DNA of 64,000 nt. Origin: Haemophilus parainfluenzae ATCC 33392. Lineage in GTDB: Bacteria; Pseudomonadota; Gammaproteobacteria; Enterobacterales; Pasteurellaceae. Shown here in pieces: positions 3,760 to 27,227 of the stretch. Both the position numbers and the translations under genes were made by a program. The DNA is taken from the NCBI RefSeq assembly GCF_031191205.1, contig NZ_CP133470.1, positions 813,501-877,500 on the forward strand. The letters run 5' to 3'. Position 1 is the first letter of the stretch. Each line of letters begins with the position of its first letter. The notes beneath the pieces were generated by a model. The model ran no database searches. It saw only the letters and a program-made list of their open reading frames with translations, and was not told the DNA's origin.

Positions 3760-6342
3760 TTACAGCATTTTCTTCAATTGATACAGATAAGCTAAGGCTT
3801 GTTTTGGACTTAATTCATCTGGATCAAGTTGCTCAATGGCTTCGCGTAAAGCATCCGGTTCTGCTTCAAAAGCCAATTCACCTTGATGTTGATTTAATGC
3901 TCTTAAATGTTGAATTTGTTGATCACCATTTTGTGCCGACAATTTTTCTAATTGATGCAATTTTTGCTTCGCCAGTTTAATAACGGATTGAGGCACACCA
4001 GCCAGCGCTGCAACAGCAAGTCCATAACTTTTACTTGCCGCACCGTCTTGAACAGCGTGCATAAAGGCAATGGTATTGTTATGTTCTAATGCATCTAAAT
4101 GAATGTTAGCAATGCCTTCAATTTGTTCTGGCAGTGCGGTGAGTTCAAAATAATGGGTCGCAAATAATGTAAGTGAACGAGTTTTCTTTGCCAGCCATTC
4201 GGCACAAGCCCAAGCTAAAGAAAGCCCATCATAGGTAGAAGTACCGCGTCCAATTTCATCAATCAGAACTAAACTTTGTGAAGTGGCTTGATGAAGAATA
4301 TTCGCCATTTCGGTCATTTCTACCATAAATGTAGAACGACCGGAGGCTAAATCATCAGAGGCGCCAATTCGAGTAAAAATACGATCAATTTGCCCGATAA
4401 CCGCACTATCAGCTGGCACAAAACTGCCTATATACGCTATCAATGTAATTAAAGCTGTTTGACGCATATAGGTACTTTTACCACCCATATTTGGGCCAGT
4501 AATAATCAGCAAATGACGTTGCTGATTGAGATTCACAGGGTTAGCAATAAAGGGATCTTTTAAGACTTGTTCCACTACAGGATGGCGACCATTTTCAATT
4601 TTTACGCCAATTTCATCACTAAATTGTGGTGCAACATAATTTAAGGTTTCTGCTCGTTCTGCGAGGTTAACTAACACATCCAATTCAGACAATGCCAAGC
4701 TGGTTAACTGTAATTGACCTAAATGTGGCAACAATAAATCAAATAATTCATCATAAAGTTGCTTTTCTAAAGCAAGCGCCGCGCCTTTTGATTTTAAAAC
4801 CTTGTCTTCATATTCTTTTAATTCAGGAATAATGTAGCGTTCGGCATTTTTTAAGGTTTGACGACGAACATAATGAATCGGTGCTTTATGAGCTTGCCCT
4901 TGGCTGATTTGAATGTAATAACCATGCACCGCATTAAAGCCAATTTTTAAGGTATCAATACCTGTGCTTTCTCGTTCACGTTGTTCTAAATTTTCTAAAT
5001 ATTGCGTTGCGCCAGCGGAAAGGGTTCGCCATTCGTCTAATTCGGCATTATAGCCTTCAGCAATAACGCCACCATCGCGAATTAATAACGGAGGGGTTTC
5101 AATAATTGCTTTATTAAGTAGTTCGATTTGCGCGGAAAAATCATCAATTTGTGCAGAAAGTGCGGTCAAATTTGACGATGTTTTTGTATGAATCAGCGAT
5201 TTTATCGGTTCAATTTGTTCTAATGCAGTTCGTAAACGTGTGAGATCACGAGGACGAGCAGAACGCAGTGCTACACGAGCAAGAATCCGTTCCATATCCC
5301 CCACTTGTTGCAAATAAGGCTGCAATTCGTGATACAAATCTTGCTCAATAATTTCACCAATCGTTTTTTGGCGTTTTAATAGAATGTCTGTTTGACGGAT
5401 AGGCTGATGAATCCAACGTTTTAACAAACGGCTACCCATTGGCGTAACACATTTATCTAATACCGAAGCCAGCGTGTTTTCTGTACCACCCGCAAGATTT
5501 TGAGTGAGTTCTAAATTTCGGCGTGTTGCAGCATCTAATTGAATATTATCGTTATTTTGAATAACACTAATACTTTGAATATGTGGCAGAGAAGCGCGTT
5601 GTGTTTCTTTTGCATATTGCAATAAACAACCTGCTGCTGCCAAGCCAAGAGGTGATTTTTCTACACCAAATGCACGTAAATCTTTCGTACCAAATTGACG
5701 ATTAAGTTCTGAGATCGCGGTACTGAGTTCAAATTCCCAAATTGGACGACGACGTAATCCTTTATAATGTTCGATAATGGCCATTTCAGCAAAATCTTCA
5801 CAATAAAGTAATTCTACGGGATTAATACGCTGTAATTCAGCTTGCAAGGCTTCTTTTGAATGAGGTTCACAAAGCTGGAAACGTCCAGATGTCATGTCTA
5901 ATGTGGCTAGACCAAATTTTTCTTTTTCCTGATAAACCGCTACAATTAAGTTGTCTTGGCGTTCTGGTAAAAGGGCTTCATCACTCACTGTACCTGGTGT
6001 CACAATTCGCACAATTTTTCGCTCAACCGGTCCTTTTGATGTGGCGGGATCACCCACTTGTTCACAAATGGCTACAGGTTCACCTAATTGCACTAATTTT
6101 GCTAAATAGCCTTCTACCGCGTGATAAGGCACGCCCGCCATGGGAATTGGATTACCTGCGGATTGTCCACGTTTAGTTAAAGAAATATCTAACAACGCTG
6201 CCGCTTTTTTTGCATCATCATAAAAAAGTTCATAAAAATCCCCCATTCTATAAAATAACAAAATGTCAGGATTTTCTGCTTTTAACTTGAGATATTGCTG
6301 CATCATCGGCGTATGCTGATCGAAATTGTCTTGTAAATTCAT
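3760..6342 (-). CDS. mutS: DNA mismatch repair protein MutS
   Basis: The 860-residue full-length MutS recognises mismatches and small loops and recruits MutL. Near the N-terminus GDFYELF carries the mismatch-stacking Phe36 and Glu38 (E. coli numbering fits). The ATPase domain has Walker [14 protein letters not shown], Walker [14 protein letters not shown] and FATHYFELT. The C-terminal residues form the tetramer/beta-clamp region. The start is ATG 6342. It is not next to a tryptophanase cluster as in some H. influenzae strains; its neighbours are glpX and an mgtC family gene. Confidence 0.98.
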
Positions 6343-21117: not shown

Positions 21118-21792
21118 TGCTTTCTCTTTGATCGTTTTGAGGTAGCGATATACGCTAGGTTCTGAGATTTTCAAATATTTCGCCACCATCGGAATGGCAC
21201 CTTTGATATTGAAAATGCCTTTATCAAATAAGACTTGAACGGCGTTTTCCCGCTGTCTTAAACTGAGTGGTTTATCGGAATGTAATAGGGTGAAATCAAG
21301 GTATTCACAAAGGATATCTTCGATAGAGTTTTCGAGTTTTTCTTTATTAATAATTTCGGCCTCTTCCACTTCAGCAAAGGCCGCATCAATACCTAAAATA
21401 TTGACGAAGTTTCCAAGATTTTCTAATGAAATTAATTTAGTCATCACATCAACCAACTCAGAGGTATCATGATTAATACAAAGGATGCCTTCTAATTTAT
21501 CCCCATTTTTAATGAAATAAGTTGCACCTCGAATGACCTTTTCGGAATCTGCCACCGCTTTGTAGTTAAAGATAAAATCCTTATCTAAATACACTTTATC
21601 CTGCAACAAACTTGAAGCAAAAGAGCTAAGCGGAGAAGAAAGCGTTCGACCACTGACGTGGCTATTCGCAATGGCTTCCATATGAGCCTTATTCTTATCA
21701 AAAGAATGAAATACGACTTCGTATTTAGGACCGAGAACATTTCCCAAAAAATGGGTTAGGCCAATAAAATATTTCTTTTGTATGTTATTCAT
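21115..21792 (-). CDS. YheO/DauR-like transcriptional regulator
   Basis: A 225-residue protein with an N-terminal PAS-like YheO domain (FLGNVLGPKYEVVFHSF near 15-31) and a C-terminal helix-turn-helix (AIPMVAKYLKISEPSVYRYL at about 200-219). Members of this family regulate amino-acid, sulfur or D-amino-acid genes. Position convergent with tpl-tyrP makes it a candidate regulator of tyrosine use; this is inference from neighbourhood. Confidence 0.8.
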   Translation of the reverse strand: MNNIQKKYFIGLTHFLGNVLGPKYEVVFHSFDKNKAHMEAIANSHVSGRTLSSPLSSFASSLLQDKVYLDKDFIFNYKAVADSEKVIRGATYFIKNGDKLEGILCINHDTSELVDVMTKLISLENLGNFVNILGIDAAFAEVEEAEIINKEKLENSIEDILCEYLDFTLLHSDKPLSLRQRENAVQVLFDKGIFNIKGAIPMVAKYLKISEPSVYRYLKTIKEKA

Positions 21793-22003
21793 ACCAGTTT
21801 ATCTCATTAATTTCAGATTGCTGTAGGTATTCTATAACCGCTTATTTTTTATGGCAAATATATTGTAAAAAACGGCAGGTTATCTATGTTTTTTTACTTT
21901 AAGTGAATCTTATAATGCTTAGAGGATATGGTTAGACAATACTTCTGTGATATTCTTTGGTGTTGGGATTTGTATCTTATTCAGTTGATGGTAAGCAATT
22001 TGA

Positions 22004-22363
22004 AGGAATCATGAAAAATACGCCAACAGGAAATTAATATGTTGGTATTCAAATGGATGTTTTTATACTCCAAAAATGGTTAATTGCGTTGATAAGGGAA
22101 AAGAATACCCATTAATTGCAGGGTATCAAAAAAAAGAACTACTAGGACATACAAACTCAAAACAAAGATGGAAAAATCTTGTTTCTTGTGGAGGAAAGTA
22201 TGGCGATATAAATCTACACTACTATCCACAAAACTATCAAATAAATGGTAAAAGATACAAAAATCTTGATGAATGTATGAATACTAAAGGGTATATATAT
22301 CTTTACCCTGCTGAATGTGGCTATCAAGATCCTAAGTGGGATAAGGGAAAATGTAACTTATAA
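22004..22363 (+). pseudogene. N-terminally truncated Cys-rich lipoprotein relative
   Basis: The frame is open from 22004 with no start until ATG 22076. The pre-ATG part (ICWYSNGCFYTPK) continues sensibly into MVNCVDKGKEYPL, so the gene has probably lost its signal peptide and start. Later parts have VSCGGKYGD and LDECMNTKGY, resembling the Cys pair and the C-x3-KGY end of the lipoprotein at 15640, then a tail with AECGYQDPKW. If expressed from 22076 it would be a 95-residue cytosolic protein. A small two-TM gene follows, repeating the lipoprotein plus two-TM order. Confidence 0.5.
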
Positions 22364-22458
22364 CGAATTGAATTTATTATTTAAACAGAGTGTGGTCAGT
22401 TTTCAAAGCGTTTTTCAGAGGCTGTTGGAAAAGAGTTGAATAATAAGGAGAATAAAAA

Positions 22459-22665
22459 ATGAGAACTTTATCTTTCTTAATTTGGTCTGGTATCTTTGTG
22501 TCTTTTTGTGGTTCTATTTTTGTAGGTTTTTTTCTACTTTTAAATTATATTAAATTTAATGAATTTGATTATATCTTACTATTCAAGGTGGTCTTTGTGT
22601 TTTTTATTGCTGGTTTTGTTATTCCTATACCAGAGTTAATAAAGTTAAGAAATAAAATAAAATGA
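22459..22665 (+). CDS. Small two-TM membrane protein
   Basis: A 68-residue protein with helix about 5-29, a turn with Lys, Glu and Asp (YIKFNEFD), helix about 39-56 and a basic end (LIKLRNKIK). Preceded by AAGGAGAA. Same size and topology as the products at 16187, 16411, 16756 and 17261, and again directly downstream of a Cys-rich lipoprotein-like gene. Function unknown. Confidence 0.62.
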   Translation: MRTLSFLIWSGIFVSFCGSIFVGFFLLLNYIKFNEFDYILLFKVVFVFFIAGFVIPIPELIKLRNKIK

Positions 22666-22710
22666 TTATTGGTTGATCATAATATTTAATTGTATATTTT
22701 TATTATCTAT

Positions 22711-22842
22711 ATGCTGGTGATGCTAAAATACCATGGATATACATGGTATCATCAAGACACAGGACGAATGCAATTAGCTCCAGAGTGGGATCATTCAAAG
22801 ACAGAACATGTGGGTGGAGATTATATCCAAAAAGGAAAATAA
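22711..22842 (+). pseudogene. C-terminal scrap of a WHH-family nuclease toxin
   Basis: A 43-codon frame reads GYTWYHQDTGRMQLAPEW and then DHSKTEHVGGDY before the stop. This is the end of the WHH-type nuclease domain (HNH/endonuclease VII group) found at the tips of CDI, Rhs and Maf polymorphic toxins, whose consensus is W-H-H, then MQLVP, then H and HxGG. The middle His of WHH is Tyr here. The rest of the toxin is absent, so it is an orphan tip. The immunity-like gene starts 1 bp after its stop, the expected toxin-immunity order. Confidence 0.75.
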
Positions 22843-22843
22843 T

Positions 22844-23227
22844 ATGTGGAAAATATATAAAGATAATGATCAAGATCTTAGTTTCGTATTAGGTTGTATG
22901 TATTGTCAAGCCATAGATTTAAAAGAGTTTAAATTATGGCTTTTGAGGGTAATTGAAACCTCTAATACAGATGACATACCTATGTATATTTATGATCTTA
23001 CTGATTTCGATGGCCCCTTATTTAAGATCTCAGAAGTGATAGGTTTTTCATTGAGGAATTATTTTTCTCTTGAAGAGGAATACTCTATTTATGGTATTGC
23101 TTATATTAGAAATAAAAATATTGTAGATGCGCCAGTTGAAATGGATAAAGCCATTCATTACCTTAAATTAAATAATTATTTATTGAAGAAATTTAAATAT
23201 TTTTTTCCTTTTATAGATGAGGTTTAA
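22844..23227 (+). CDS. Orphan immunity protein (partner of the WHH toxin scrap)
   Basis: A 127-residue acidic, soluble, predicted mixed alpha/beta protein (MWKIYKDNDQDLSFVLG, MYIYDLTDFDGP). I start it at ATG 22844, with AAAGGAAAAT upstream, rather than 22808, which lies inside the toxin scrap. Its place directly behind a WHH nuclease end makes it the likely cognate immunity protein. I do not recognise a named immunity family. Confidence 0.65.
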   Translation: MWKIYKDNDQDLSFVLGCMYCQAIDLKEFKLWLLRVIETSNTDDIPMYIYDLTDFDGPLFKISEVIGFSLRNYFSLEEEYSIYGIAYIRNKNIVDAPVEMDKAIHYLKLNNYLLKKFKYFFPFIDEV

Positions 23228-23354
23228 ATTCTTCTGATGCTCGCTCTCAGATAGCGTGCGTCTTCTGGCGTGTACTTGTATCTAACTAAAAATAAACAAA
23301 CTGAAATTCTTCATAAAAATAGTGAAAATCTGAATCAAATAAAATTGATGTTTA

Positions 23355-23378
23355 GGCTCGCGTTGGGAAACGCGAGCC
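23355..23378. repeat. GNRA-type hairpin element, copy A
   Basis: A 10-bp perfect stem (GGCTCGCGTT, 23355-23364, with AACGCGAGCC, 23369-23378) closes a GGGA tetraloop. It is GC-rich in an AT-rich island and has no T-run. Related hairpins occur at 23981-23999, 26333-26360 and 27022-27041. Confidence 0.55.
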
Positions 23379-23394
23379 ATCGTTGGAGCATTAA

Positions 23395-23895
23395 GTGAAA
23401 GACGTTAAAGAAAAGTTTAGAAATATTGATATTTGGTCTTTTGATGGAAAAGGTGATATAAATAACATATTGAAATTTCAATCTATATTCAACATTACTC
23501 TGCCAAATACTTATAGAGAATTAATGACTAGGTATAATAATCCTAAGTTTGAACAAGACACTTTTGATTTTTATGATCTATATCATAAACGAGAATCTTT
23601 AGCATCATTTGGATTTGATGGATTTAATTCCCAATATGAGAATATTTACAATCAATTTATTTATTCAGATGAAGATGGATATGAAAATGTGTATTCATTT
23701 GCTCATACATCTGAAGGAAACTGGTTATGCTTTGATTATAGAGATTCTCCTACAACATCAGAACCAAAGATCTCTTTAGTTATTCATGATGAATATAACG
23801 ATGAAATAGGAAAATGGCTTATTTTACCTGTGGCAAATAATTTTGATGATTTTCTAGATAGTCTTTATGATTTTAATGAGCGCTATCCTGATTAG
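23395..23895 (+). CDS. SMI1/KNR4 (SUKH) family immunity protein
   Basis: A 166-residue acidic protein with the SUKH pattern: LPNTYRELMTRYNN near the N-terminus, a central NWLCFDYRDSP, then IHDEYN and the terminal ANNFDDFLDSLYDF. SUKH proteins are typical immunity partners of nuclease toxins in contact-dependent and Rhs-type systems. The start is GTG 23395 with TTGGAG upstream. No toxin gene precedes it, so it is an orphan. Cognate toxin unknown. Confidence 0.82.
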   Translation: MKDVKEKFRNIDIWSFDGKGDINNILKFQSIFNITLPNTYRELMTRYNNPKFEQDTFDFYDLYHKRESLASFGFDGFNSQYENIYNQFIYSDEDGYENVYSFAHTSEGNWLCFDYRDSPTTSEPKISLVIHDEYNDEIGKWLILPVANNFDDFLDSLYDFNERYPD

Positions 23896-23924
23896 CAAGG
23901 AGTAATAGTGTTTCCCCAATGATA

Positions 23925-23999
23925 GCGCCAGCGTCCACGCTGGTGCTGCTTAATAAAAACATTGCGAATTTTACCCATAAACGTTGGGAGAACCAATGT
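23925..23999. repeat. Two further hairpin elements between orphan immunity genes
   Basis: GCGCCAGCGT (23925-23934) pairs with ACGCTGGTGC (23937-23946), with one G-T pair. About 35 bp on, AACGTTGG can pair with CCAATGTT across a GAGAA loop (about 23980-24000). The second resembles copy A in its GTTGGGA-AAC core. Confidence 0.4.
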
Positions 24000-24027
24000 T
24001 CAAAATTCTTTGGATTTTGTGACCGCA

Positions 24028-24204
24028 CTTTTAGTTGATAGGCACAAGCAAGGACTCTTGCGCCATCGTGGGGGATACGAAGATTATAAATATTTACCAG
24101 TTAGATTTGGGGCAGTAGTCGATTCAATGGCGAGTGAAGCTACAAGTAAAAAATTGGAAAATAATGAGAAAAACATGAAATCTATAATTCTAGGAGGTGA
24201 ATAA
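24028..24204 (+). pseudogene. Probable C-terminal toxin fragment
   Basis: An open frame reads HRGGYEDYKYLPVRFGAVV, then DSMASEATSKKLENN and MKSIILGGE. It has no plausible own start and begins just after an uptake signal (24021-24029). The next gene starts with GTG directly after its TAA, and the ribosome-binding site AGGAGG lies inside the fragment's end. That is the layout of a toxin C-terminus followed by its immunity gene. I do not recognise the toxin domain. Confidence 0.45.
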
Positions 24205-24432
24205 GTGTTTAATAATATTATTCAGTTTTTTATTTATTCCCTCGTTGTTTTTCTATCTGGATTTATAATAATATCTTTATGTTTTATCGTGTTTACCTTT
24301 ATCATAAATCTAGGTGATATTTCTATTCTTGAGATAAAGGATATACTATCTTTTAATTTCTATATGTTTTCTAGGATGTCACCATTAATAGTATTAGTAA
24401 TGCTTATATCTAAAAAACTCAGAGGTAGCTAG
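24205..24432 (+). CDS. Small membrane protein, possibly immunity to a membrane toxin
   Basis: A 75-residue protein with two long hydrophobic segments (about 6-36 and 52-67), a loop with GDISILEIKD and a basic tail (SKKLRGS). It starts at GTG 24205 with AGGAGG at good spacing, immediately after the toxin-like fragment. The size is that of the other two-TM proteins of the island. Function inferred only from position. Confidence 0.6.
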   Translation: MFNNIIQFFIYSLVVFLSGFIIISLCFIVFTFIINLGDISILEIKDILSFNFYMFSRMSPLIVLVMLISKKLRGS

Positions 24433-24556
24433 TATAGAAAGTGTTTAATTTCTGATGTTAAGTTATTAGAAATTTGTAGTCTGTTTGATATTTAAACAGA
24501 CTACAATTTAAAATACAGAAGTACAAAGTGCGGTCGATTTCTAAAACGTTTTCTGT

Positions 24557-24966
24557 TACCCATTTATTAGATAAACCTTTCCAACAACTTTCCGGCGGCG
24601 AAAAAAGCCCGCGTGCAGCTTGCCCGTTGTTGCATTAAAGAGGCGCCCCTATTGCTTGCCGATGAACCCATTGCTTCACTCGATCCTTACTACCAAATCG
24701 ACATCATGGAACAGCTCAAATCTCTCACCCCAACGCATACTTGCGTGGTGGCGATTCATCATCTTTCTTTGGCGTATAAATTTTGTGATGAAGTGATTTT
24801 ATTGAATAAAGGGCAAATTATTGCCAACGGTGAAACACAATGCGTATTAACCGCTGATAATTTGGCGAAAACGTTTAGTATTTGGGCGGAAATTGACGAA
24901 ACAAAAAAAGAAATCGTCGCCATTGAAAAACTAAAGAACAATGAATTTTTATCCCATTACGAATAA
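24557..24966 (+). pseudogene. ABC transporter ATPase remnant (C-terminal part, frameshifted)
   Basis: The fragment begins THLLDKPFQQLSGGE and continues KARVQLARCCIKEAPLLL, ADEPIASLDPYYQ and VVAIHHLSLAYKFCDE. This is the signature, Walker B and switch His of an iron/haem/cobalamin-type ABC ATPase. The frame breaks at GAAAAAAGCC (near 24600), where one A too many separates LSGGE from KARVQ. The N-terminal half with Walker A is missing. The preceding uptake signal at about 24528 suggests a junction made by transformation. Confidence 0.8.
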
Positions 24967-25177
24967 TATCCTCGAAATGTGCGTAATGGTTAATGTTAAA
25001 AGTGCAGCTATTTTCTTGGTATTGTTTTGTAAATCATGGTGTTAAATAGAAAATACTTTGAGTTAAAATATTCTAGTGCTAATATAATAATCGATTGCAA
25101 AGGAGTGTTTAATGCAATCGGGCTAAGGACAATTTTATATTGCCTATAGATTATATTAATTATATTAAAAGGAAAAC
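24967..25177. promoter_or_regulatory. Upstream region of the trimeric autotransporter gene with an inverted repeat
   Basis: CGATTGCA (25092-25099) and TGCAATCG (25113-25120) form an 8-bp inverted repeat around AAGGAGTG, about 60 bp before the adhesin start. It may be an operator or leader hairpin. Very AT-rich sequence follows up to AAAAGGAAAAC, the ribosome-binding site. Confidence 0.35.
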
Positions 25178-26224
25178 ATGAAAAATATAACATTTAAAAG
25201 TAGTTTAATTGCATTGCTTGTAGCAGGGATGGGTATTGGTACTGCAACCGCAGCAACAGTAGATGATTTGGATAAAATCGTTACCCGTCATGGAAAGGTT
25301 ATCGGTGCACATGAAAAAGTAATCCAAGCTCATGAAAAAGTAATCCAAGCTCATGAAAAAGTGATCCAAACGCATGAAGGCGCAATTAAAACGCATGAAG
25401 GCGCAATTAAAACGCATGAGGGAGTGATTAATAACCATTCTGATCAGTTGGCAGATCATAATGACAAATTAGTGAAATATAAAAGAACAATCGATAATCA
25501 TGATAGCGTTATTACTGCGCATGAAGGCGTGATTCAGACTCATGAAAAAGTAATTCAAACTCATGAAGGCGTAATTCAAAATCATGAGAAAGCAATTCAA
25601 ACTCATGAAGGCGCGATTAAAACTCATGAAGGTGTACTCCAAACTCATGAAGGCGCGATTAAAACTCACGAGGGTGCAATCCAGACTCATGAGAAAGTAA
25701 TTCAAGCTCATGAGAAAGCAATTCAAACTCATGAAGGTGCGATTAAAACTCATGAAGGTGTACTCCAAACTCATGAAGGTGTACTCCAAACTCATGAAGG
25801 TGCGATTAAAACTCACGAGGGTGTACTCCAAACTCATGAAAATGCAATCAATGCGCAAAAAGCTGTATTAAATACCCATGAAAATGCGATTAATGCACAT
25901 AAAGCCGCGTTAGACAGACATGAAACTGAAATTCGTGAAAGTAGAGCAAATGTTGCCGGTTTGAATACCCGCATCGATAGCTTAGGCCGTGAAATCAAAA
26001 ATGGCCTGTCTACACAAGCAGCATTAAACGGTTTATTCCAACCTTATAATGTCGGTAAACTAAATATAAGTGCTGCGGTTGGTGGTTATCGTGATAAAAC
26101 TGCTTTAGCGGTAGGTAGCGGTTTCCGTTTCAATGAAAAATTTGCGATGAAAGCCGGTGTTGCTGTAAACGCCAATGGCGGTGGTGGTATGGCATATAAC
26201 GTTGGTGCTAACTTTGAATTCTAA
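25178..26224 (+). CDS. Short trimeric autotransporter adhesin (YadA-anchor) with a histidine-heptad stalk
   Basis: A 348-residue surface protein secreted by the type Vc route. A signal peptide (about 1-25, ending ATAA) leads into a stalk of 31 consecutive heptads (residues 37-253) and a YadA-type membrane anchor (about 254-348, with LNTRIDSLGREIKNGL, then four beta strands ending NVGANFEF). There is no head domain. The heptad consensus is [TA]HE[GK][AV][IL][KQ]: Ile/Leu/Val sits at core position a and His at core position d in 29 of 31 heptads (Tyr in heptad 10, Gln in heptad 28). Only NIT in the signal peptide and NIS in the anchor are N-glycosylation sequons, so it is an unlikely target of the ngt product. 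It is flanked by the ABC remnant and a strong terminator. Confidence 0.88.
   Translation: MKNITFKSSLIALLVAGMGIGTATAATVDDLDKIVTRHGKVIGAHEKVIQAHEKVIQAHEKVIQTHEGAIKTHEGAIKTHEGVINNHSDQLADHNDKLVKYKRTIDNHDSVITAHEGVIQTHEKVIQTHEGVIQNHEKAIQTHEGAIKTHEGVLQTHEGAIKTHEGAIQTHEKVIQAHEKAIQTHEGAIKTHEGVLQTHEGVLQTHEGAIKTHEGVLQTHENAINAQKAVLNTHENAINAHKAALDRHETEIRESRANVAGLNTRIDSLGREIKNGLSTQAALNGLFQPYNVGKLNISAAVGGYRDKTALAVGSGFRFNEKFAMKAGVAVNANGGGGMAYNVGANFEF
25286..25936 (+). repeat. 21-bp tandem repeat array encoding coiled-coil heptads
   Basis: Thirty-one in-phase 21-bp units with the pattern CATGAAGGY or CATGAAAAR in nearly every unit. Adjacent copies are often identical (for example the units at 25307-25369). 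Recombination or slippage between units changes stalk length without breaking the frame. Confidence 0.9.
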
Positions 26225-26246
26225 TTCAAGTTTTTGTTAAATTAAA

Positions 26247-26281
26247 AAAAAGCGCTATTTCGAGAGAGATAGCGCTTTTTG
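26247..26281 (+). terminator. Intrinsic terminator of the trimeric autotransporter gene
   Basis: A 12-bp stem (26247-26258, AAAAAGCGCTAT, with 26269-26280) has a 10-base loop and an A/T-rich exterior. It lies 23 bases after the stop. Confidence 0.9.
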
Positions 26282-26332
26282 TTTGTCATATCTAAAAGTG
26301 CGGTTCATTTTTCAGGTATTTTTCCTTGGAGT

Positions 26333-27091: not shown

Positions 27092-27227
27092 TATTATGTA
27101 GCAAATGCACAAAACGCTTGCTGAGCCTGTCGAAGCATTGGTTTTGTGTATCGGAGAAGCTGAAATTACTTACACTTCGACAAGCTCAGTGACCGCAATT
27201 TCAGCTTTGTGCAACTGCTACATAATA
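27092..27227. mobile_element. MITE-like palindromic element
   Basis: A 136-bp element with 22-bp terminal inverted repeats: TATTATGTAGCAAATGCACA-type at the left and its complement at the right, two mismatches. Inside are a second inverted pair (GCTGAAATT and AATTTCAGC) and two opposed copies of the widespread CTGAGCYTGTCGAAG motif. There is no coding frame. A clear target duplication is not visible. Confidence 0.7.

Follow-up and report, generated by a model that had tools for sequence, protein, structure and literature searches.

The DNA analyzed here is a stretch of 64,000 nucleotides from the genome of Haemophilus parainfluenzae ATCC 33392 (assembly GCF_031191205.1, contig NZ_CP133470.1, positions 813,501 to 877,500 of the forward strand), referred to below as the window, and positions are given in window coordinates unless a locus is named. 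As shown in Table 1, the region of interest contains an open reading frame for a 348-aa protein that appears to be a short trimeric autotransporter adhesin, the remnant of an ABC transporter ATPase gene on its 5′ side, and a stem-loop resembling an intrinsic terminator on its 3′ side. The consensus scan that located the stem-loop gave 2 sites versus 0.9 expected.

Table 1. Features of the adhesin gene and its surroundings, in window coordinates.
Feature	Position	Strand	Basis
ABC transporter ATPase gene remnant, 5′ part missing and frame disturbed	24525..24966	+	blastn, ORFs
Uptake sequence AAGTGCGGT, left edge of the A. segnis-like block	24526..24534	+	
Gene for a 348-aa short headless trimeric autotransporter adhesin	25178..26224	+	ORF with stop
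Probable signal peptide, residues 1-25	25178..25252	+	translation judged by eye, typical sequence
Stalk, 31 heptads, residues 35-251, His at d in 29/31	25280..25930	+	heptad cutting
Tyr101, first non-His residue at d, heptad LVKYKRT (A. segnis counterpart LVKYKRE)	25478..25480	+	
Gln227, second non-His residue at d, heptad INAQKAV	25856..25858	+	
Stalk end with hydrophobic core (V259/L262, I266/L269) and YadA-type anchor	25931..26221	+	Pfam, 2lme alignment
Intrinsic-terminator-like stem-loop 3′ of the adhesin gene	26247..26280	+	consensus scan
Uptake sequence AAGTGCGGT, close to where the A. segnis-like block ends on the right	26296..26304	+	

The C terminus of the protein matched the YadA_anchor family (PF03895) at residues 287-348 with an E value of 6.4e-15 and a score of 55.4 bits versus a cut-off of 22.7, whereas the other 13 Pfam matches listed for the adhesin protein were all below their own cut-offs. 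Residues 260-347 aligned to the YadA anchor structure 2lme with an E value of 3.6e-22, and this YadA-type anchor bears out the proposal of the initial annotation that the His-rich array belongs to a trimeric autotransporter stalk. The same annotation had described the protein as headless, and indeed no head domain was found, with only nine residues separating the signal peptide (judged by eye) from the first His heptad. An AlphaFold2 model, computed for one chain from the single sequence and therefore silent on trimers (mean pLDDT 71.7, pTM 0.51), gave a helical stalk with block pLDDT values of 81-92 over most of its length and lower values near residues 141-150; the helix was interrupted near residues 143-146, and the anchor strands were modeled at low confidence. 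A fold search returned mostly SMC and chemoreceptor helices and was informative for the YadA anchor alone. Judged from its sequence, the protein is probably a type Vc trimeric autotransporter of the OMP100/ApiA kind, short and headless, with the role of an adhesin assigned to it by family only.

The stalk was found to consist of 31 consecutive heptads in a single frame, with position a occupied by Ile in 22, Leu in 8 and Val in 1, and the number of heptads and of His at position d is exactly as first reported. All 29 His residues of the protein fall at position d, the longest unbroken run being 17, and Gly is present at position f in 14 of the 31 heptads. When the stretch was shuffled 10,000 times, the greatest number of His residues at any one heptad position was 12 and the mean of the best values was 6.8, compared with the observed 29. 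The heptad frame continues without interruption or insertion from V28/L31 before the array to the hydrophobic pairs of the stalk end after it (Table 1). Because ordinary hydrophobic heptads on both flanks share this frame, the register with Ile at a and His at d is fixed. The array had originally been placed at 25286..25936, a few bases off the whole heptads.

A claim of the initial annotation that did not hold concerns the 21-bp units, which had been called near-identical: 30 of the 31 are distinct, their mean pairwise identity is 61%, and close copies are limited to stretches, such as a 126-bp unit present in 1.8 copies with an 89% match. Stalk length was said to be variable on this account, and it does differ between species (31 heptads here and 23 in the A. 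segnis relative described below), although the near-identical units are lacking. The amino acid differences between units are distributed unevenly. Position d differs in 13% of pairs of window units versus 40-75% at the other positions; the corresponding values are 25% versus 47-84% for the A. segnis units, and 0% versus 49-71% for those of G108, the third genome with a long array. Because 27 of the 29 His codons of the window array are CAT, synonymous differences at d are few as well, and therefore selection to keep His at this position is suggested by the sequences but not proven. In a three-way alignment of the arrays (A1), His occupied 14/14 of the d columns covered by all rows; the input comprised 21/31 heptads from the window, about 14/23 from A. 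segnis and a portion of the G108 array, it omitted the A. segnis heptads with a residue other than His at d, and repeat alignment itself favors invariant His.

The distribution of such arrays was evaluated by searching genomes at increasing taxonomic distance. Among 11 genomes of the window's own genus, the array gene was unique to the window genome, and matches in the other 10 were confined to the anchor and the stalk heptads next to it, with 27-35% identity. A search with the stalk alone matched 12 of 140 family genomes at E ≤ 1e-6, and long His arrays were present in three of the 140, belonging to three genera: the window genome (longest run 17), G108 (run of 28) and G031 (run of 14), whose protein is identical to that of A. 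segnis HK_296. The other nine stalk matches comprised G070, with a run of five His, and eight with at most one. The A. segnis HK_296 protein (locus L005) has 23 heptads with 20 His at d; in this locus the frame is interrupted between the signal peptide and the stalk (4001-4884), and the window copy is open throughout. The G108 protein (730 aa, minus strand of locus L069, 9255-11447) has His in 28/28 heptads, built from only 9 distinct units. Its array sits below a YadA-like head and neck (identified by eye), and therefore the His array is a stalk. At this locus (L069, 7850-13092), two adhesin genes of 358 and 730 aa face each other, and an ORF that was labeled transposase-like by eye adjoins them.

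Outside the family, the search of 369 genomes of the class gave two weak matches beyond the window's own, to ORFs with 1 and 0 motifs of the H@d type (His at d), and that of 398 genomes of the phylum gave only the window's own match. Among 394 genomes of the order there was one match outside the family, in G828, consisting of LPRHTRA repeats that are unlikely to form a coiled coil because of the proline in the repeat. The class, order and phylum samples overlap, and some family genomes lie outside them. One phage record matched, with heptads of the N@d type (Asn at d), none of 10 candidate stretches in viral contigs contained a His array, and the array was present in 1 of 27 candidate stretches in named genome contigs, which was that of A. 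segnis. The plasmid search matched 34 records, and 2 were inspected among the 20 matches listed. One plasmid, of Photobacterium toruni (L083, from 2998), carries IVTHEQP/IVTHEQF repeats with 11 His at seven-residue spacing in an unannotated frame; a coiled coil is unlikely here because the unit contains proline and a gene is annotated on the opposite strand. In the sampled genomes of the class, order and phylum, we thus recognized no convincing His array outside the family by sequence similarity, on which these searches rest and which His arrays with very different surface residues would escape. In a weak match (E 0.012) to the TRAF5 chain of PDB entry 6ku5, the row MKRHSGLLDIHATQLRTHSEHLQE comprises three successive heptads in which Leu comes four residues after His, possibly a further case of His at d in a natural coiled coil. 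In the window's own genome, two very large open frames of 2956 and 2502 aa (L003 and L004) matched the end of the protein weakly (E 1.4e-5 and 9.4e-5), and are probably further, much longer trimeric autotransporters.

The relationship to A. segnis extends beyond the adhesin gene. It was found by blastn that the window matches A. segnis in the same order, at 24525-24914 with 80% identity and at 25042-26330, the segment with the adhesin gene, with 69% identity. The former segment is the 3′ part of the ATPase gene, and its 80% DNA identity is to the gene that precedes the relative in A. segnis. There, the ATPase ORF is complete and lies behind genes for a FecCD permease and a periplasmic binding protein, and behind a TonB receptor gene of which the locus edge leaves just the end. 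A second ATPase-like stretch, with 76% identity, is present elsewhere in the window genome. On the right, the flank from about 28350 matches 10 of 10 other genomes of the genus at 91-95%, and on the left, the flank up to about 22040 matches at least 5 of the 10 at 91-96% among the matches listed, with a spacing between the flanks that varies across these genomes. The adhesin gene lies in a block that resembles the A. segnis locus and was probably imported, most likely through natural transformation with DNA of an Aggregatibacter-like donor. The uptake sequence near each edge of the block (Table 1) is suggestive only, because the window contains 45 such 9-mers. Nearby, a low-GC stretch of about 21700-24400, pieces of which match some genomes of the genus among the matches listed, includes an ORF of the SUKH/SMI1-KNR4 family (23395-23895, E 8.9e-17) and has the look of a variable island that carries genes of the immunity type. 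At about 27115-27215, CTGAGCCTGTCGAAGC and CTTCGACAAGCTCAG were noticed by eye as the two halves of an inverted repeat, and pieces of the stretch just 3′ of it match several places in related genomes.

To place the His layers among related stalks, the d position was scored in 29 ORFs, which were chosen from the loci (at most 30 per search) by a crude motif filter that missed one locus, L047. These ORFs contain 384 N@d motifs and 109 H@d motifs, and the three long arrays account for 77 of the latter; L037, with ten H@d motifs, is an example of a shorter set. The window protein has no N@d motif. Most related stalks carry Asn at d, and the kinship with such stalks that the initial annotation had pointed out is seen in the aliphatic residue at a and the polar residue at d.

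The residue that follows d differs between the two types. The residue after His is acidic in 25/29 window heptads (Glu or Asp), in 16/20 of A. segnis and in 17/28 of G108, where the other 11 His are followed by a basic residue. Among the other 11 proteins with H@d motifs, which hold shorter sets, an acidic residue follows His in 6/30 cases, and a basic residue follows 1/30 His versus 121/215 Asn; heptads taken from a single protein do not count as independent here, and the motifs were picked with a crude filter. A general rule that an acidic residue at e accompanies His at d was rejected, as the association is pronounced in just two long arrays and reaches 6/30 in the other proteins. What appears to hold in the 11 proteins is that a basic residue is rare after His at d and common after Asn at d.

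A structural precedent for a core His layer is found in UspA1 of Moraxella. In the structure of residues 299-452, His428 at position d faces the core, and its Nδ1 holds an axial water (the atom is Nδ1 in Table 2 of that paper, whose text prints Nδ2), and the neighboring chain bonds to Nε2 through Oγ of Ser429 (PMC6839023). Residue 429 is at e because it is the next after d. As cited in the same paper, another UspA1 fragment has three core His residues at a or d, two of which hold phosphate and one water, and QxxHxxx is described as the commonest heptad motif of trimeric autotransporter adhesins with a hydrophilic core (PMC6839023). This solved layer, which points inward, supports the view taken at the outset that the window His residues face the core. 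The window stalk resembles UspA1 in having His at d of a trimeric autotransporter heptad, where, as in UspA1, it may face the core and be held by the residue after His in the neighboring chain. It differs from UspA1 in having 29 such layers instead of the one and three of the two fragments, and in having mostly Glu instead of Ser after His (PMC6839023).

The reach of this Glu was evaluated in an idealized trimer. With His at d, the Glu after His reached Nε2 of the next chain in 504/526 models, and with His at a (Glu then being at b) in 0/320; these models have a parametric ideal backbone, a distance of 2.0-3.2 Å between Nδ1 and the axis, and an a/d phase that was scanned, not fitted, and their clash test covers rings and backbone, with Ile layers and clashes within Glu left out. 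The alternative register, with His at a and Val/Ala at d, was rejected on this result and because it breaks the frame common to both flanks.

Because of the UspA1 layer, the counts of acidic residues at e and the difference between 504/526 and 0/320 models, we propose that the stalk contains rings of His-Glu clamps. Three chains would form a left-handed parallel coiled coil of about 32 nm (217 residues at about 1.48 Å), closed at its end by a YadA-type barrel, as a form of the N@d stalk with His substituted for Asn. Almost all d layers would consist of three His that point toward the axis with Nδ1 in the center, holding water or a small anion, which we take as the default core ligand because of the analogy with UspA1. 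The Nε2 of each His would be held by the e residue of the next chain, and as this residue is usually Glu, three inter-chain clamps would ring and lock each layer. The core would stay hydrophilic, which would suit a passenger that crosses the outer membrane unfolded and then zips up in register. Given its imidazole core, such a stalk is expected to be more sensitive in its stability to pH and to ions bound in the core than N@d stalks are. A stack of 29 His layers could, however, be unstable, and Gly at f in 14 of the 31 heptads counts against the model as well. It also weighs against the clamps that UspA1 has Ser and not Glu after His (PMC6839023), and that an acidic e residue is not universal (11/28 basic in G108, 6/30 acidic in the other proteins). 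We nevertheless regard the whole explanation, a headless type Vc adhesin with an H@d stalk and inter-chain His-Glu clamps, as moderately probable.

Several known systems resemble the window protein in part. OMP100 of Aggregatibacter actinomycetemcomitans, also named ApiA, is a trimeric autotransporter that is likewise short and has a similar anchor. Its published stalk construct (PMC4786415), minus its first residue, is present in an ORF of locus L035 that is 40% identical to the window protein over residues 117-348. Because L035 carries this sequence and falls into one genus group with A. segnis HK_296, this group is probably Aggregatibacter. The L035 ORF has 13 N@d motifs, no H@d motif and an IENKADKAD beta-layer motif, whereas the window protein has 29 H@d motifs, no N@d motif and no insertion in its heptads; it was rejected as an OMP100/ApiA ortholog, as the IENKADKAD motif is absent from its translation and its N@d count is 0. 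The trimeric tail needle protein gp26 of phage P22, in the alignment to 4lin, has the heptads LADHEARI and VDDHESRI beside ITANTKAI in a solved structure, but it is a phage protein with isolated His heptads, and the likeness is at the coiled-coil level only. The N@d stalks, represented among the short relatives by the long arrays of G021 and G022, share with the window protein an aliphatic residue at a and a polar d residue in a hydrophilic core ring, and they differ in having Asn at d, commonly followed by Lys or Arg, in place of His mostly followed by Glu. In solved examples, this Asn binds chloride (PMC6839023). Finally, the designed isoleucine-zipper trimer TZ1H has His at d and responds to pH and Ag; it is man-made and has six heptads with three His per chain in alternate heptads, whereas the window stalk is natural and has 29 (PMC6662064).

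The TZ1H precedent makes responses to pH and metal realistic for the window stalk, and by analogy either would be plausible, as the initial annotation had suggested. As a pH switch, the buried imidazoles would be neutral near pH 7, and acid, for example in plaque, would protonate them and loosen or rearrange the stalk, which would zip up again as the pH rises. His at 29/31 d positions is in keeping with this, as is the assembly of TZ1H into a trimer above the His pKa and its random coil state below it (PMC6662064). We consider such a switch unlikely, since a neighboring Glu at e could compensate for the charge and make the effect weaker, and the phosphate or water held by core His in UspA1 indicates that a charged layer is perhaps tolerated (PMC6839023). 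A stalk that loads metal, in which three axial Nδ1 per layer with Glu as second shell would give stacked His3 sites for Zn, Cu, Ni or similar ions, could draw on the Ag-His3 sites at d in TZ1H (PMC6662064) and on designed three-stranded coils that bind Zn and Co through three His (PMC13262294). Of the positions tried in our models, a and d were the ones that allowed an axial site, but common rotamers gave the d site in only 3/6 backbone settings (a: 4/6), and His at d in UspA1 holds water (PMC6839023). The A. segnis gene lies downstream of the TonB receptor end, the periplasmic binding protein and the FecCD-type transporter, which would fit metal loading; however, the window retains only the broken ATPase remnant, and a metal-uptake gene was not recognized by eye among the 14 listed ORFs around the G108 gene. 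An association of the array with a metal-uptake operon was accordingly rejected, and metal loading itself appears very unlikely. The haem-like ligands that had also been proposed are unlikely and were set aside, as no pocket is expected in a tight trimer and a haem ring would find no room there.

The array could also be a by-product of repeat amplification, in which slippage multiplied a single H@d heptad and His would do no more than fill a d layer. In genus group g19, a row of IATNKAD-type heptads at L043 ends in one IATHTQR, whereas L047 has five IATHT heptads at the corresponding place, and this difference between similar adhesin ends is a natural Asn-to-His swap that probably came about by heptad copying. 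A single base change turns Asn into His, and the few distinct units of G108 also fit simple copying. The distinctness of 30/31 window units with d as the least changed position, the tendency of Glu to go with His, and the long arrays in three genera argue the other way, and we judge this origin improbable. It would be quite unlikely, in our view, that such one-base changes and heptad copying turned an N@d stalk into up to 29 Glu-backed axial His3 rings over about 30 nm, whose cooperative uptake of protons or metal tunes the stiffness, length or stickiness of the adhesin to its surroundings. The stalk with inter-chain His-Glu clamps and water or an anion in the core remains the reading that we prefer.

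Single layers with His at d, arrays with Asn at d and designed trimers with His at d are already known. In the open-access papers covered by our searches we found no nearly pure H@d stalk of 29 layers, and since the defining papers on N@d stalks lie outside this scope, an earlier mention is possible. Three more papers in which histidine appears together with these adhesins have it in their reference lists alone. Polar core layers are a signature of trimeric autotransporter stalks, and their purpose is regarded as unsettled. A natural stalk with His for Asn in nearly every layer, mostly accompanied by Glu, could separate anion binding from a core that is merely hydrophilic for export. Long natural trimer modules of this kind, maybe sensitive to pH or metal, would also be of use in protein design. 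The 29-layer array offers a natural system in which possible responses of a stalk to pH, anions or metals can be put to the test.
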